DNA of 60,494 nt from a bacterium (GTDB lineage: Bacteria > Patescibacteriota > Patescibacteriia > 2-01-FULL-39-33): contig JAKQDP010000038.1 of assembly GCA_029558735.1 (NCBI GenBank), positions 1 through 60,494 on the forward strand, written 5' to 3'. The position numbers and the translations under genes were made by a program. Under the pieces are notes generated by a model, which worked only from the letters and a program-made list of their open reading frames with translations, was not told the DNA's origin and did not search any database. Below are positions 47,147-53,638 of this stretch, piece by piece. Every line of letters starts with the position of its first letter. The first letter of the stretch is position 1.

Positions 47147-47203
47147 TAAATTAGTGTTCTTTGTAAATTGACCAATAAACACAACCAAAAAGGAGTCAGA
47201 AAG

Positions 47204-49096
47204 ATGAGACAGTCTGTTTTGCAGGGGAGTTTAATGAAATTAGTGGTTATTTCCTTGGGAGTGATGTTGATAGGATGTCCTCCCCCCCTGGGTCCAATCA
47301 ATGGCCCCGGCGATCCGACAATTGAGTTTACTCATGTGCCGAAAATCGGTAGTGCTGAGGATTTGGAAGGTCAAGTCTGGCATGTTACTGCGGCTGATCA
47401 CGGTGTAGCTGTTTATATCAAAGTTGGGGTTGGTTGGTGGACAAAACCCTACTGGGATCAACCAGTCTCTTTGATCTATCCCGACGGCAGCTGGCGGTGT
47501 GATATCACTACCGGCGGCTATGATCAACAGGCTACTGAAATAATTGCTTTCTTGATCGAAAGTGATTATGATCCACCTTTGGCCCAAAATATCCAATCCT
47601 TGCCCGAAGAGATCTTTAATCAAGCTCTGAATTGGGTGAAAGTCAACAGAGAACAGAAACCACCGGCTACAGTGGTCGTACCAAATGTAGTCGATTTGAC
47701 CGAATCCGAAGCTCGGCAACTGATCGAGGCCGCCGAGTTGGCAGTCGGTCAGGTTAGCACCGAGTATCACGAAACAGCTTCGGTTAATCAGGTAATCTCC
47801 CAATCGCCTCAGGCCGGAGTGGAACTGGAAATCAATTCTCAAGTTAACTTAACTGTTTCTCTGGGTTCGAAACCACCGGCATATCAAGTTTACGGATTAA
47901 ACTTCGGTCCGTACACCAAGGAAGGCCAAAATCCGGAGCACGGGACAGTGATCCCGAAAGAACAGATCAGGGAATTGTTGGAGATAATCGCTCCTTATAC
48001 TCAGTGGGTACGAACCTTTGGAACTACTCACGGTTTGGAGCATGTTGGACCAATAGCCAATGAGCTTGGCTTGAAGGTGGCAGTCGGTGCTTGGCTGGAC
48101 TCTAATTCGGAGACTAACCAAGAACAGATCGACGGAATGATTGAAATAGCTAATGCCGGTTATGCCGATCTTCTGATCGTTGGCAGCGAAACTCTACTAC
48201 GTGGGGATCTGTCTGCCTCTGAGCTGATAGGTTATATCAATCAAGTTAAATCTCTGGCTCCCGGACTGCCAGTGACTACCGCCGATATCTATGGTAATTT
48301 ACTGAACGAACCGGAAGTAATTGAGGCCGTAGACATAGTCCTAGTCAACTACTATCCGGTTTGGGAAGGGATATCAATAGACTACGCCGTAGCTCACCTT
48401 CACCAACAGCATCAAATGATGCAAGAAGTAGCTGGTGACAAGCAGGTTATAGTCTCAGAGACCGGCTGGCCTAGCCAAGGTGAACCGTTAGGTCAAGCCG
48501 TGCCGTCTAAAGAAAATGCCGCTTTCTACTTTTTGAATTTTGTCTCCTGGGCTCGAGCCGAAAAAGTGGACTACTTCTACTTCGCTGCCTTTAATGAACC
48601 CTGGAAACAAGAATGGGATTGGGGCCCCTACTGGGGCGTCTGGGATCAATTCGGTCAGATGAAACCTGGCATGGAAGCGGTGTTTGAAGACATGACCATA
48701 CTGGATAACTGGAGCGGTCAGGAAATTATCGGTGGTTGCGGTGATCCAGTGATCGAATTCACTTTTGTACCGGATTGTGGCAGCTACGATGACCTCGTCG
48801 GTCAAGTCTGGCATGTTGCTGCGGCTGATCACGGTGTAGCTGTTTATATCAAAGTTGGGGTTGGTTGGTGGACAAAACCCTACTGGAATCAACCAGTCTC
48901 TTTGATCTATCCCGACGGCAGCTGGCGGTGTGATATCACTACCGGCGGCTATGATCAACAGGCCACTGAAATAATTGCTTTCTTGATCGAAAGTGATTAT
49001 GATCCACCTTTGGCCAATGGCGATCAAAATCTGCCGGCCGAGCTAGAACAAAATGCTTTGGTCTGGGTCGAGGTCAAACGAGATCCAGATTCATAA
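47204..49096 (+). CDS. GH17 glucanase-like lipoprotein with PASTA domain and duplicated flanking modules
   Basis: 630 residues from the ATG at 47204; an upstream in-frame TTG/GTG lacks a site. Lipobox LIGC. Domains: module A (residues ~38-128, with VGWWTKPYW and SWRCDITTGGYD), a PASTA domain (~158-223, VPNVVDLTESEARQLIEAAEL), a GH17 barrel (~228-502), module A' (~516-605). GH17 acids: Glu329 in VGSETL and Glu419 in VSETGWPSQ, matching the expected acid/base and nucleophile; the first motif is normally GNE, so S for N is odd. GH17 enzymes cut or extend beta-1,3-glucans. The flanking modules are probably carbohydrate-binding (inference). Modules A and A' share almost identical DNA. Confidence 0.82.
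   Translation: MRQSVLQGSLMKLVVISLGVMLIGCPPPLGPINGPGDPTIEFTHVPKIGSAEDLEGQVWHVTAADHGVAVYIKVGVGWWTKPYWDQPVSLIYPDGSWRCDITTGGYDQQATEIIAFLIESDYDPPLAQNIQSLPEEIFNQALNWVKVNREQKPPATVVVPNVVDLTESEARQLIEAAELAVGQVSTEYHETASVNQVISQSPQAGVELEINSQVNLTVSLGSKPPAYQVYGLNFGPYTKEGQNPEHGTVIPKEQIRELLEIIAPYTQWVRTFGTTHGLEHVGPIANELGLKVAVGAWLDSNSETNQEQIDGMIEIANAGYADLLIVGSETLLRGDLSASELIGYINQVKSLAPGLPVTTADIYGNLLNEPEVIEAVDIVLVNYYPVWEGISIDYAVAHLHQQHQMMQEVAGDKQVIVSETGWPSQGEPLGQAVPSKENAAFYFLNFVSWARAEKVDYFYFAAFNEPWKQEWDWGPYWGVWDQFGQMKPGMEAVFEDMTILDNWSGQEIIGGCGDPVIEFTFVPDCGSYDDLVGQVWHVAAADHGVAVYIKVGVGWWTKPYWNQPVSLIYPDGSWRCDITTGGYDQQATEIIAFLIESDYDPPLANGDQNLPAELEQNALVWVEVKRDPDS
47369..47584 (+). repeat. 216-bp direct repeat, copy 1
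   Basis: 213 of 216 bases match copy 2 at 48800-49015; the three differences are single bases. Confidence 0.95.
48800..49015 (+). repeat. 216-bp direct repeat, copy 2
   Basis: See copy 1. Two of the three differences change the residue (T to A, D to N), and one is silent. Confidence 0.95.
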
Positions 49097-50459: not shown

Positions 50460-50738
50460 TTAACTTAATTGACATAGAATGTTTGTCTTACATTTGGGGT
50501 ACCTTGCAATAGGATTTTGGAAATCTTGAAAATCACTTATGTCAAGTTTGTTTTGTACAGAGTAACTATTTAATATTAGATAGTTTATTACCTCCAATAA
50601 AGTTGTTTTTCCATTCCCATTTTCACCAATCAAAATATTTAAACCGCTTCCTTTTTCTCCATTTGGAATCGCTAAATCTTCAAAGGTTTTATCTCCGAAA
50701 CATTTGAAATTTTTTATTTGTAAAGTTTTTATAAACAT
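50460..50738 (-). pseudogene. AAA/SMC-like ATPase N-terminus cut by the IS3 element
   Basis: Starts at the ATG at 50738 (MFIKTLQIKNFKCFGDKTFEDL). Walker A GENGNGKTTLLEVINYL is intact, as in OLD/RecF-type AAA ATPases. Native sequence ends at the IS (50508); the last ~15 residues are IS-encoded. The rest of the ATPase is missing, except perhaps the fragment at 49224-49348. Confidence 0.75.
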
Positions 50739-50773
50739 ATTTAAAAATTCAAAATTTCCCAACCTTTGAAAGA

Positions 50774-51036
50774 TTGATCAATAGAAGAAAATTATTAAGA
50801 GACAGAGCTCTATCATATAAAGGCGGGAAATGCGAGCTTTGTGGATACGATAAATGTCAACAGGCATTAGAATTTCATCACCTAGAATTAACCAGGAAAG
50901 ACTTCGGTATTTCGGCAAAGGGATTTGCCAGATCCTGGAAAAAATCATAAAGGAATTGGATAAATGCATATTGGTTTGCGCCAACTGCCATCGGGAAATC
51001 CACAGTAAAGCCCAAACAATAAAAAAAGAGGCCTAA
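50774..51036 (+). pseudogene. HNH endonuclease with a single-base frameshift
   Basis: Frame 1: RRKLLRDRALSYKGGKCELC, then YDKCQQALEFHHLELTRK... FARSW. Frame 2, after A6 at 50939-50944: KIIKELDKCILVCANCHREIH. Together these give the CxxC, HH and CxxCHxxxH zinc-finger HNH layout of free-standing HNH nucleases. One more A in that run would restore one frame. No clear start codon or ribosome site precedes it, so the N-terminus is also uncertain. Confidence 0.75.
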
Positions 51037-51053: not shown

Positions 51054-51069
51054 GCTCCGCGAACTGGAT
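51054..51069 (-). other. Copy of the tRNA-Asn 3' end
   Basis: GCTCCGCGAACTGGAT is identical to 51276-51291, the acceptor and part of the T arm of tRNA-Asn. Such copies often mark an attachment site of an inserted element. Confidence 0.6.
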
Positions 51070-51276: not shown

Positions 51277-51616
51277 CTCCGCGAACTGGATTCGAACCAG
51301 TAACCTACCGGTTACACTTGTCTTTAATTTTCATTAAAGTGTGGACTATATCATTACCATAACCCCTGCTTCCCGAAAAAATCGAGAATGACAGATGCCT
51401 TAGGTATCGGGCGCTTCGCCCCGATCCCGAGTACTCGGGATCGGGACTACTCCCATATGGGATAGTCTCTGCACGTTTCTCCGCCGAGGCGGAGACTTCG
51501 CTCAGGATCACCATTTTAAAGGCTTCCCTGAATTCACCCGATTTACATTCCGAGGTTTCCCCCGAAAGCTGCGTATTTGTTCACAGCCGGTTGCTCTACC
51601 ATTGAGCTATCGCGGA
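51277..51616 (-). tRNA. tRNA-Asn(GUU) split by a group I intron
   Basis: Exon 1 is 51616-51583 (34 nt) and exon 2 is 51314-51277 (38 nt). Joined, they give 72 nt: acceptor TCCGCGA/TCGCGGA, D arm GCTC/GAGC, anticodon stem ACCGG/CCGGT with loop CTGTTAA (anticodon GTT), T arm ACTGG-TTCGAAT-CCAGT. CCA is not encoded. It is read from a consensus promoter upstream. Splicing is needed before the anticodon exists. Confidence 0.9.
51315..51582 (-). ncRNA. Group I intron in the tRNA-Asn anticodon loop
   Basis: 268 nt, starting after U of exon 1 and ending in G. P1: exon GCUGU pairs with GCAGC (51572-51568) with the U-G wobble at the cut site. The four core elements are in order: P (51535-51521, GAATTCAGGGAAGCC), Q (51509-51496, GATCCTGAGCGAAG), R (51472-51462, GCAGAGACTAT), S (51352-51343, GATATAGTCC). 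TCAGG in P pairs with CCTGA in Q (P4), GACTA in R pairs with TAGTC in S (P7). No ORF inside. Confidence 0.9.
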
Positions 51617-51644: not shown

Positions 51645-51783
51645 GCCGGTTGCTCTTCCTGGGCAGCGCTGAATGCTCCCAGAGGTTGCATCCATCGTCG
51701 TCTCGCCTGCTCCGCCTATCGGCGGATTGGCTCACTCCTGCCCGTTGGTCGCTATCGCTACCAACCCATTGAGCTATCGCGGA
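51645..51783 (-). other. 5' fragment of tRNA-Asn with a 109-nt insertion in the D loop
   Basis: 51783-51766 repeats TCCGCGATAGCTCAATGG; 51656-51645 repeats AGAGCAACCGGC. Between them lie 109 nt with hairpins (GTTGGT/ACCAAC, CCGCC-GATA-GGCGG). The anticodon and 3' half are missing, so it is not a working tRNA. Confidence 0.7.
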
Positions 51784-51825
51784 ATATATTTTTTACAAGG
51801 ACCTAAAAATAATAACACCCTAAAC

Positions 51826-52321: not shown

Positions 52322-53638
52322 TTAAAAATCCCTCAGCTTCTCAATTCCTCTGATCTTCTCGATTTTCTCCAGTGCCTTAGCTTCAATCTGACGGATGCGC
52401 TCACGAGTGACATCAAATTCCTGCCCCACCTCTTCCAGGGTGTGGGCCACGCCATCTCTAAGCCCGAAACGCATTTCCAAGACTTTTTGTTCTCGCGGCG
52501 TTAGTTCGGAAATCACTTGTTGGACATAATCACGCAACACTTCCAAGGCCGCCGCCCGGTCCGGACTGATTGTTTTCCTGTCTTCGATAAAATCCTCCAA
52601 GACACTGTCATCGCTGTCGTCGCCGACCGGCGTACCCAAAGAGATGGTCTCCTGGGAAATTTTGATAATATGATTGACCTTGTTCAATTCCTCGCCCATT
52701 TCGGCAGCAACTTCTTCCGGCATTGGCTCCCGTCCCAAATCCTGAACCAAGCGCCGCTCCACCTGCTGAAATTTGTTGATATTTTCCACCATGTGAACCG
52801 GAATACGAATCGTCCGTGACTGATCGGCCAAAGAGCGGGTAATCGCCTGTCTGATCCACCAAGTGGCGTAAGTGGAAAATTTATAACCCTTGTGATAATC
52901 AAACTTATCGACCGCTCGAAACAAACCAATATTACCCTCTTGGATTAAATCCAACAGGGATAAGCTTTTACCGGTAAATTTTTTGGCAATCGACACCACC
53001 AGGCGCAAGTTGGCCTTGATTAATTGCTGACGCGCTTCAATATCACCCCGTTCAATCCGCTTGGCCAACGCTACTTCCTCATCCGATTTTAGGAGCGGCA
53101 CCCGGCCAATTTCCCTAAGATACATCTGAATGGAATCGGCGGAAATGTCACCCAAATTAATATCGCCAGTAGCTAAGGCTTTGACTTTCTTTTTGTCCTT
53201 ATCCGGTTCTGGTTTGGGCGCCTCTTTTTTAATCACCGAAGCGAAAAATCCGTCCCCTTCGACCAAGGCAATATTCTGCCGATCCAGGATTTCCAATAAT
53301 TCTTCATAACGCTCGACATACTCTTCCAATTCCGGCAAGGCCATTAAAATTTCTTGTTCAGTAATAAAACCACGCGATCGGCCCTTTTTGATTAAGTTTT
53401 CGATCGCTTGTTCGTCAGCCTGAATTTTGGTTTTAGAAATTTTTCTTTTTCGCTTCTCCGAAGAGCTGGTCCCCTTGGCGTGTTTGGTGGCTTTCTTCTT
53501 AGTGCCAGCGTTTTTAGTTTTTCGCCGAAGGGGTGACTTGGTTTTTTTGGTTTTCGGAGAACTGGATTTTTTTCTTACCTTTTTCCTGCTCACTTTTTTA
53601 CCGGTAGTGGGTTTGCCTTTATTTTTCTTAGCAGGCAT
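52322..53638 (-). CDS. rpoD: RNA polymerase primary sigma factor
   Basis: 438 residues. The first ~80 are Lys/Ser-rich, replacing most of region 1.1. Regions: 1.2 [18 protein letters not shown], 2 [26 protein letters not shown]... [29 protein letters not shown], 3 [13 protein letters not shown], 4 [15 protein letters not shown]... [16 protein letters not shown]. Close to the consensus primary sigma, consistent with TTGACA/TATAAT promoters in this window. Last gene of the rbr-dfx-dedA-dnaG run. Confidence 0.97.

Follow-up and report, generated by a model that had tools for sequence, protein, structure and literature searches.

A tRNA gene on the minus strand of the window (here the whole stretch of 60,494 nucleotides that was analysed) is interrupted at its anticodon, which raises the question of what the interrupting element is, which tRNA it divides and how it came to be kept there. 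The initial annotation had read the locus as a tRNA-Asn gene cut at CTGT|TAA by a 268-nt element in a CPR-like genome; the genome assignment holds and the coordinates proved to be exact, the whole split tRNA-Asn(GUU) gene occupying 51277-51616(-). The gene and its upstream neighbour are laid out as follows:

51583-51616, minus strand: 5' exon of tRNA-Asn(GUU), positions 1 to 35, with the end ...CCGGCUGU (sequence, trial excision and the G002 orthologue)
51315-51582, minus strand: group I intron of 268 nt, GAACAA...CAAGUG, between U35 and U36 (RF00028, covariation and single-strand fold, z = -7.7)
51277-51314, minus strand: 3' exon of tRNA-Asn, positions 36 to 73, UAACCGGU...CGCGGAG (sequence, trial excision and the G002 orthologue)
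52322-53638, minus strand: rpoD-like sigma-70 gene, upstream of the tRNA-Asn gene (Pfam Sigma70 regions 1.1 to 4)

Boundaries of the gene and structure of the intron

Trial excisions evaluated with ARAGORN gave Asn(GUU) from the CTGT|TAA cut alone, and therefore the cut lies within the anticodon, at U35|U36; the earlier placement in the anticodon loop was right about the location and is here refined to the anticodon itself. Excision at this point leaves a tRNA of 72 nt, and the exon and intron boundaries can be regarded as fixed because the intact tRNA-Asn of G002, which belongs to a sister genus of the same family, is identical to it at 71/72 bases. The 5' exon carries U1, a D stem and an anticodon stem pairing with the 3' exon in 12/12 relatives, while the 3' exon has discriminator G73 and does not encode CCA. 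Without its intron search ARAGORN reports zero tRNAs in the window, and ordinary annotation would therefore miss the gene; as standard tRNA finders do not see it, draft genomes of this group can seem to be devoid of tRNA-Asn. In several relatives (loci L031, L038, L041, L043 and L044) a sigma-factor coding sequence is also found, by reading, upstream of tRNA-Asn. In the window, a gene for a 23S rRNA-intervening sequence protein (PF05635; 51905-52222(-)) is located between the sigma factor gene and the tRNA-Asn gene.

The group I identity proposed from the letters was borne out by the covariance model RF00028 of Rfam, which matches 51322-51592(-) over its full length (model 1-253/253; 95.7 bits against a gathering score of 50; E = 1.9e-23) and is the sole Rfam family matched in the whole window. 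Three elements of the core are particularly informative:

51568-51572, minus strand: internal guide GCAGC, forming P1 with exon GCUGU (51583-51587), with U.G at the 5' splice site (invariant in 12/12 aligned relatives)
51463-51467, minus strand: 5' strand of P7, GACUA (R element), with its partner UAGUC at 51344-51348 (S element; invariant in 12/12)
51418-51462, minus strand: 45-nt insert between the P7 5' strand and the P3 3' strand, with two hairpins, P7.1 and P7.2 (covariation)

We aligned 12 tRNA-Asn introns together with their exons, wrote the structure from the window sequence and counted it on all of them. Paired cells amount to 93.2% of the pair cells, against 75.4% in shuffles, and pairing falls to 34-47% when the partners are slid, a control in which the structure has an advantage, having been drawn from one of the aligned sequences; the compensatory changes sit in the other eleven. 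Changes on both sides are seen in 51/87 pairs, and covariation reaches 0.506, compared with 0.177 in shuffles. The P4 and P7 pairings claimed by the initial annotation are paired in 71/72 and 60/60 cells, respectively, as are P8 in 36/36 and P3 in 76/84 with compensatory changes. The core has the pseudoknot of P3 and P7 along with P4, P6 and P8. Covariation extends over P2, P3, P4, P6a, P7.1, P7.2, P8, P9 and the acceptor and T stems of the tRNA (12/17 pairs of the P7.1 and P7.2 hairpins show compensatory changes), while P1 and P7 are invariant; the U-G wobble that had been placed exactly at the cut is conserved in 12/12. The last intron base, G, is likewise invariant in the 12/12 aligned introns.

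The window sequence taken alone folds 7.7 standard deviations below its shuffles, and its unconstrained fold displays the acceptor stem, the D stem, P1 to P6, P7.1, P7.2 and P9. The window intron has no open reading frame of its own at the place where relatives hold a homing endonuclease. Two palindromes within the intron, CCCGAGTACTCGGG and TCCGCCTCGGCGGA, were considered as dispersed repeats and rejected; neither is repeated within the window, and the 12-base core of the first has no more than three occurrences in the genome, for which reason they are regarded as peripheral helices and not as a repeat insertion. The element is thus confirmed as a group I intron splitting tRNA-Asn(GUU), and from its sequence and covariation we infer that it splices itself out.

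Probable dependence on a single tRNA-Asn gene and other readings of the locus

The host genome comprises 991 kb in 75 contigs and is 99.2% complete. Its 45 tRNA-model matches cover all other amino acids and include none for Asn (two matches without an ARAGORN call are, by reading, tRNA-Trp and a broken 5' half of tRNA-Gly), and a pattern for an intact tRNA-Asn has no match in these contigs. The split gene therefore appears to be the only tRNA-Asn of the genome, as the earlier claim of single-copy dependence had supposed, although a second copy in an assembly gap is possible given 75 contigs and 99% completeness. With no second tRNA-Asn in these contigs, the decoding of every Asn codon should require the intron to be spliced out, and the ribozyme would be required for a tRNA that all Asn codons need. 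Asp is probably loaded first onto the mature tRNA and then amidated by GatCAB, as may be deduced from the gene content: GatB has a match above the cut-off, and AsnRS has none. Among the ten genomes of the family, five (G000, G003, G004, G006 and G008) possess the intron and no intact copy, and three (G002, G005 and G009) have an intact tRNA-Asn and no intron; neither form was matched in G001 and G007 by the patterns used.

The locus might instead be a dead pseudogene, the Asn codons being read by a different tRNA, one hidden in an assembly gap, imported or encoded elsewhere. The division of the genome into 75 contigs leaves room for this, and partial copies of tRNA-Asn stand on both sides of the gene (at 51645-51787 a broken 5' half, at 51054-51069 the final 16 bases of the 3' end). 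However, every stem of the exons is paired, the core of the ribozyme is undamaged and conserved, compensatory changes occur in exons and intron across the 12 relatives, and five independent genomes of the family carry the intron, all without an intact copy, so that we judge this reading to be very improbable. Still less credit is due to a tRNA-Thr(UGU) host cut two bases upstream, after position 32, even though the intron mode of ARAGORN reports exactly this tRNA with a 268-nt intron. At that cut P1 would present U-A and not U.G, the genome already has an intact tRNA-Thr(UGU), U1-A72 and G73 are asparagine-like, and the intact gene of the sister genus reads CTGTTAA; the Thr host was rejected on the P1 wobble and on this intact tRNA-Asn orthologue.

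A third alternative concerns the splicing reaction and holds that the intron needs a host protein, for example a DEAD-box helicase or tRNA synthetase. A need for protein help in the cell is known for several group I introns (PMC3984707), but the short, GC-rich RNA reaches most of the expected helices unconstrained and an intron-encoded maturase is absent, and we are inclined to doubt the requirement without dismissing it as we do the two readings above. The reading that we prefer, with a probability of roughly 0.93, is that of an autocatalytic group I intron at U35|U36 of the sole tRNA-Asn gene, which most likely arrived by HNH homing and was kept after its endonuclease had decayed.

Spread of the intron and diversity of its cores

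An Asn host is not as exceptional as the initial annotation had implied. The intron is present in tRNA-Asn in 5/10 genomes of the family, and among the RF00028 matches of 38 related genomes tRNA-Asn is the commonest tRNA host (G000, G003, G004, G006, G008, G018, G021 and G033); the remaining matches lie in tRNA-Phe(GAA), cut at U33|G34 (G008, G026, G027 and G032), and in rRNA genes. A restrictive pattern for the 5' junction matches 42/381 genomes of the class, and most of the 30 pattern loci that were checked yield a tRNA-Asn once 197 to 626 nt are removed at the same site, while chance matches and an intact tRNA-His account for a few others. In a scan of named genomes, with lineage names taken as given from the record titles of the MAGs, the same site is occupied in Patescibacteria titled Buchananbacteria, Portnoybacteria, Uhrbacteria, Berkelbacteria, Jacksonbacteria, Moranbacteria, Peregrinibacteria, Doudnabacteria, Kerfeldbacteria and Magasanikbacteria. 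Outside the Patescibacteria it is occupied in MAGs labelled Omnitrophota, Nitrospirae, Deltaproteobacteria, Ignavibacteriales and Armatimonadetes. An exact search of viral contigs with the 19-base 5' junction gave no match. The tRNA-Asn intron at U35|U36 is therefore not rare but common to many related bacteria and some other phyla.

Other group I introns were seen along the way. The tRNA-Phe(GAA) loci L032, L037, L039 and L046 of the same class have one at U33|G34, and G008 holds both Phe and Asn introns; at L036, L048 and L050 (G028:C67) several group I introns are clustered in one LSU rRNA gene.

The cores at the tRNA-Asn site are of more than one type. Subgroup IC3, to which the classic tRNA introns belong, has a short joining segment between the P7 5' strand and the P3 3' strand, and subgroup IA is marked by extra hairpins, P7.1 and P7.2, in that place. 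The window intron, with its 45-nt two-hairpin insert, lacks the short joint of IC3; its two hairpins covary, and it may or may not belong to IA, the model used to detect it being a general and not a subgroup-specific one. Among 51 distinct tRNA-Asn introns, the two-hairpin insert of the window form is the most frequent (21/51), followed by the short joint (GACTAGATACC; 14/51), a mostly one-hairpin form (11/51) and another form (5/51), with a few of the one-hairpin inserts shortened by the pattern used for sorting. Several intron lineages may thus have used the same tRNA-Asn site, or else hairpins were gained and lost within one lineage.

The HNH endonuclease and the probable history of the intron

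The neighbourhood of the gene holds one further feature, which lies outside 51277-51616 and is absent from the initial annotation:

50765-51033, plus strand: decayed gene for an HNH homing endonuclease, in convergent orientation to the tRNA (tblastn)

The remnant shows 63% identity over 60 aa (tblastn, E = 7e-24), has lost its N-terminus, is broken in frame near 50944 with the C-terminal part in another frame, and ends about 240-250 bp from the 3' end of the tRNA-Asn. An intact intron-encoded endonuclease, as expected of a homing intron, is wanting in the window intron, and a broken HNH copy is found outside it. In relatives, the P1 loop holds an HNH-type gene of about 100 aa (G003, G006, G021, G041 and an Omnitrophota MAG), or an HNH relative stands beside the tRNA instead of within the intron (G008 and G033); the gene of G008 is convergent with the tRNA, as in the window. 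HNH proteins from the three main core types share 49-72% identity. Searches of Pfam and NCBIfam gave no match over the cut-off for the Patescibacteria proteins, and their HNH reading follows from the residues CxxC...FHH...CxNCHxxxH and from the Omnitrophota relative, which has a near-threshold match to PF01844. An N-terminal fragment (100 aa) of an AAA/RecF-like ATPase (50460-50762(-)) directly adjoins the HNH remnant, and the junction suggests that DNA was once inserted or deleted at this point.

The observed anatomy, covariation, single copy, empty site in sister genera and broken endonuclease can be joined in a scheme that supplies the splicing chemistry in the host cell, the target of the endonuclease and the order of events. 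In the precursor RNA, the five bases GCUGU at the end of the 5' exon would pair with the internal guide GCAGC; an external guanosine in P7 would cut after the U of the U.G pair, and the freed 5' exon would attack after the terminal intron G, so that the exons are joined to tRNA-Asn(GUU). Homing is the most likely route of arrival, by way of an HNH endonuclease with the intronless tRNA-Asn gene as its presumed target. The endonuclease would later have decayed, leaving the remnant near the gene, and the intron would now be retained because the tRNA-Asn gene is essential and loss is possible only if it is precise. Arrival by homing, decay of the endonuclease and retention, in this presumed order, form the simplest history.

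A wider version of this history can be put forward tentatively, and we give it somewhat less than an even chance. One small HNH family aimed at the tRNA-Asn anticodon would have been shared by several separate lineages of group I introns, with short-joint, one-hairpin and two-hairpin cores, and unrelated ribozymes would have converged on U35|U36 across Patescibacteria and several other phyla, with repeated loss of the endonuclease, escape to a free-standing gene beside the tRNA, and decay as in the window. With its varied cores, an endonuclease inside the intron, beside the gene or broken, and empty sites in sister genera, the system offers a good case for intron invasion and persistence in essential RNA genes.

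Bacterial group I introns were reviewed in 2014 without mention of an Asn host, and the authors of tRNAscan-SE 2.0 give the fMet and Ile2 cases. The window intron resembles the classic bacterial tRNA introns in its small size, its place in the anticodon loop, its U.G 5' splice site and its terminal G, in the absence of an open reading frame, which is frequent among them, and in its essential single-copy tRNA host; it differs from them in its host, tRNA-Asn(GUU) cut at 35/36, and in the two-hairpin P7-P3 insert. PMC8172020 states that group I introns in some tRNAs of circularised, mostly CPR, genomes hinder detection, and a preprint (10.1101/2025.07.03.662931, via PMC12641178) announces in its title patescibacterial tRNA introns and a novel insertion site; host phylum and gene class are as here, and the novel site may or may not be the tRNA-Asn 35|36 site. 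Group I introns in CPR tRNAs are already reported, and the window intron is a well-supported further example. Tsurumaki et al. 2024 (PMC11270868) is cited for introns with homing endonucleases in CPR rRNA genes, that is, group I introns in the same phylum with rRNA hosts, whereas the tRNA-Asn introns found here carry theirs, a small HNH gene, in the P1 loop.

Fragments of tRNA genes were also noted. The upstream 5' half of tRNA-Asn (51645-51787(-)) consists of 22 identical bases, about 110 other bases and then AGAGCAACCGGC, the tRNA-Asn fragment being followed by a hairpin and GGGCAGGAGTGAGCC (51729-51743); the downstream piece (51054-51069(-)) comprises the last 16 bases, ATCCAGTTCGCGGAGC. 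A 5' half of tRNA-Gly (G000:C55:15192-15385; L065) adjoins an intact tRNA-Gly and is likewise followed by a hairpin and GGGCAGAAATGAGCC. The hairpin-associated motif has only two matches in the genome, each behind a broken tRNA 5' half (Gly and Asn). Elsewhere in the window, a 642-aa protein (47168-49096(+)) combines a PASTA domain with a glycosyl hydrolase family 17 domain and has a near-identical segment at both ends.
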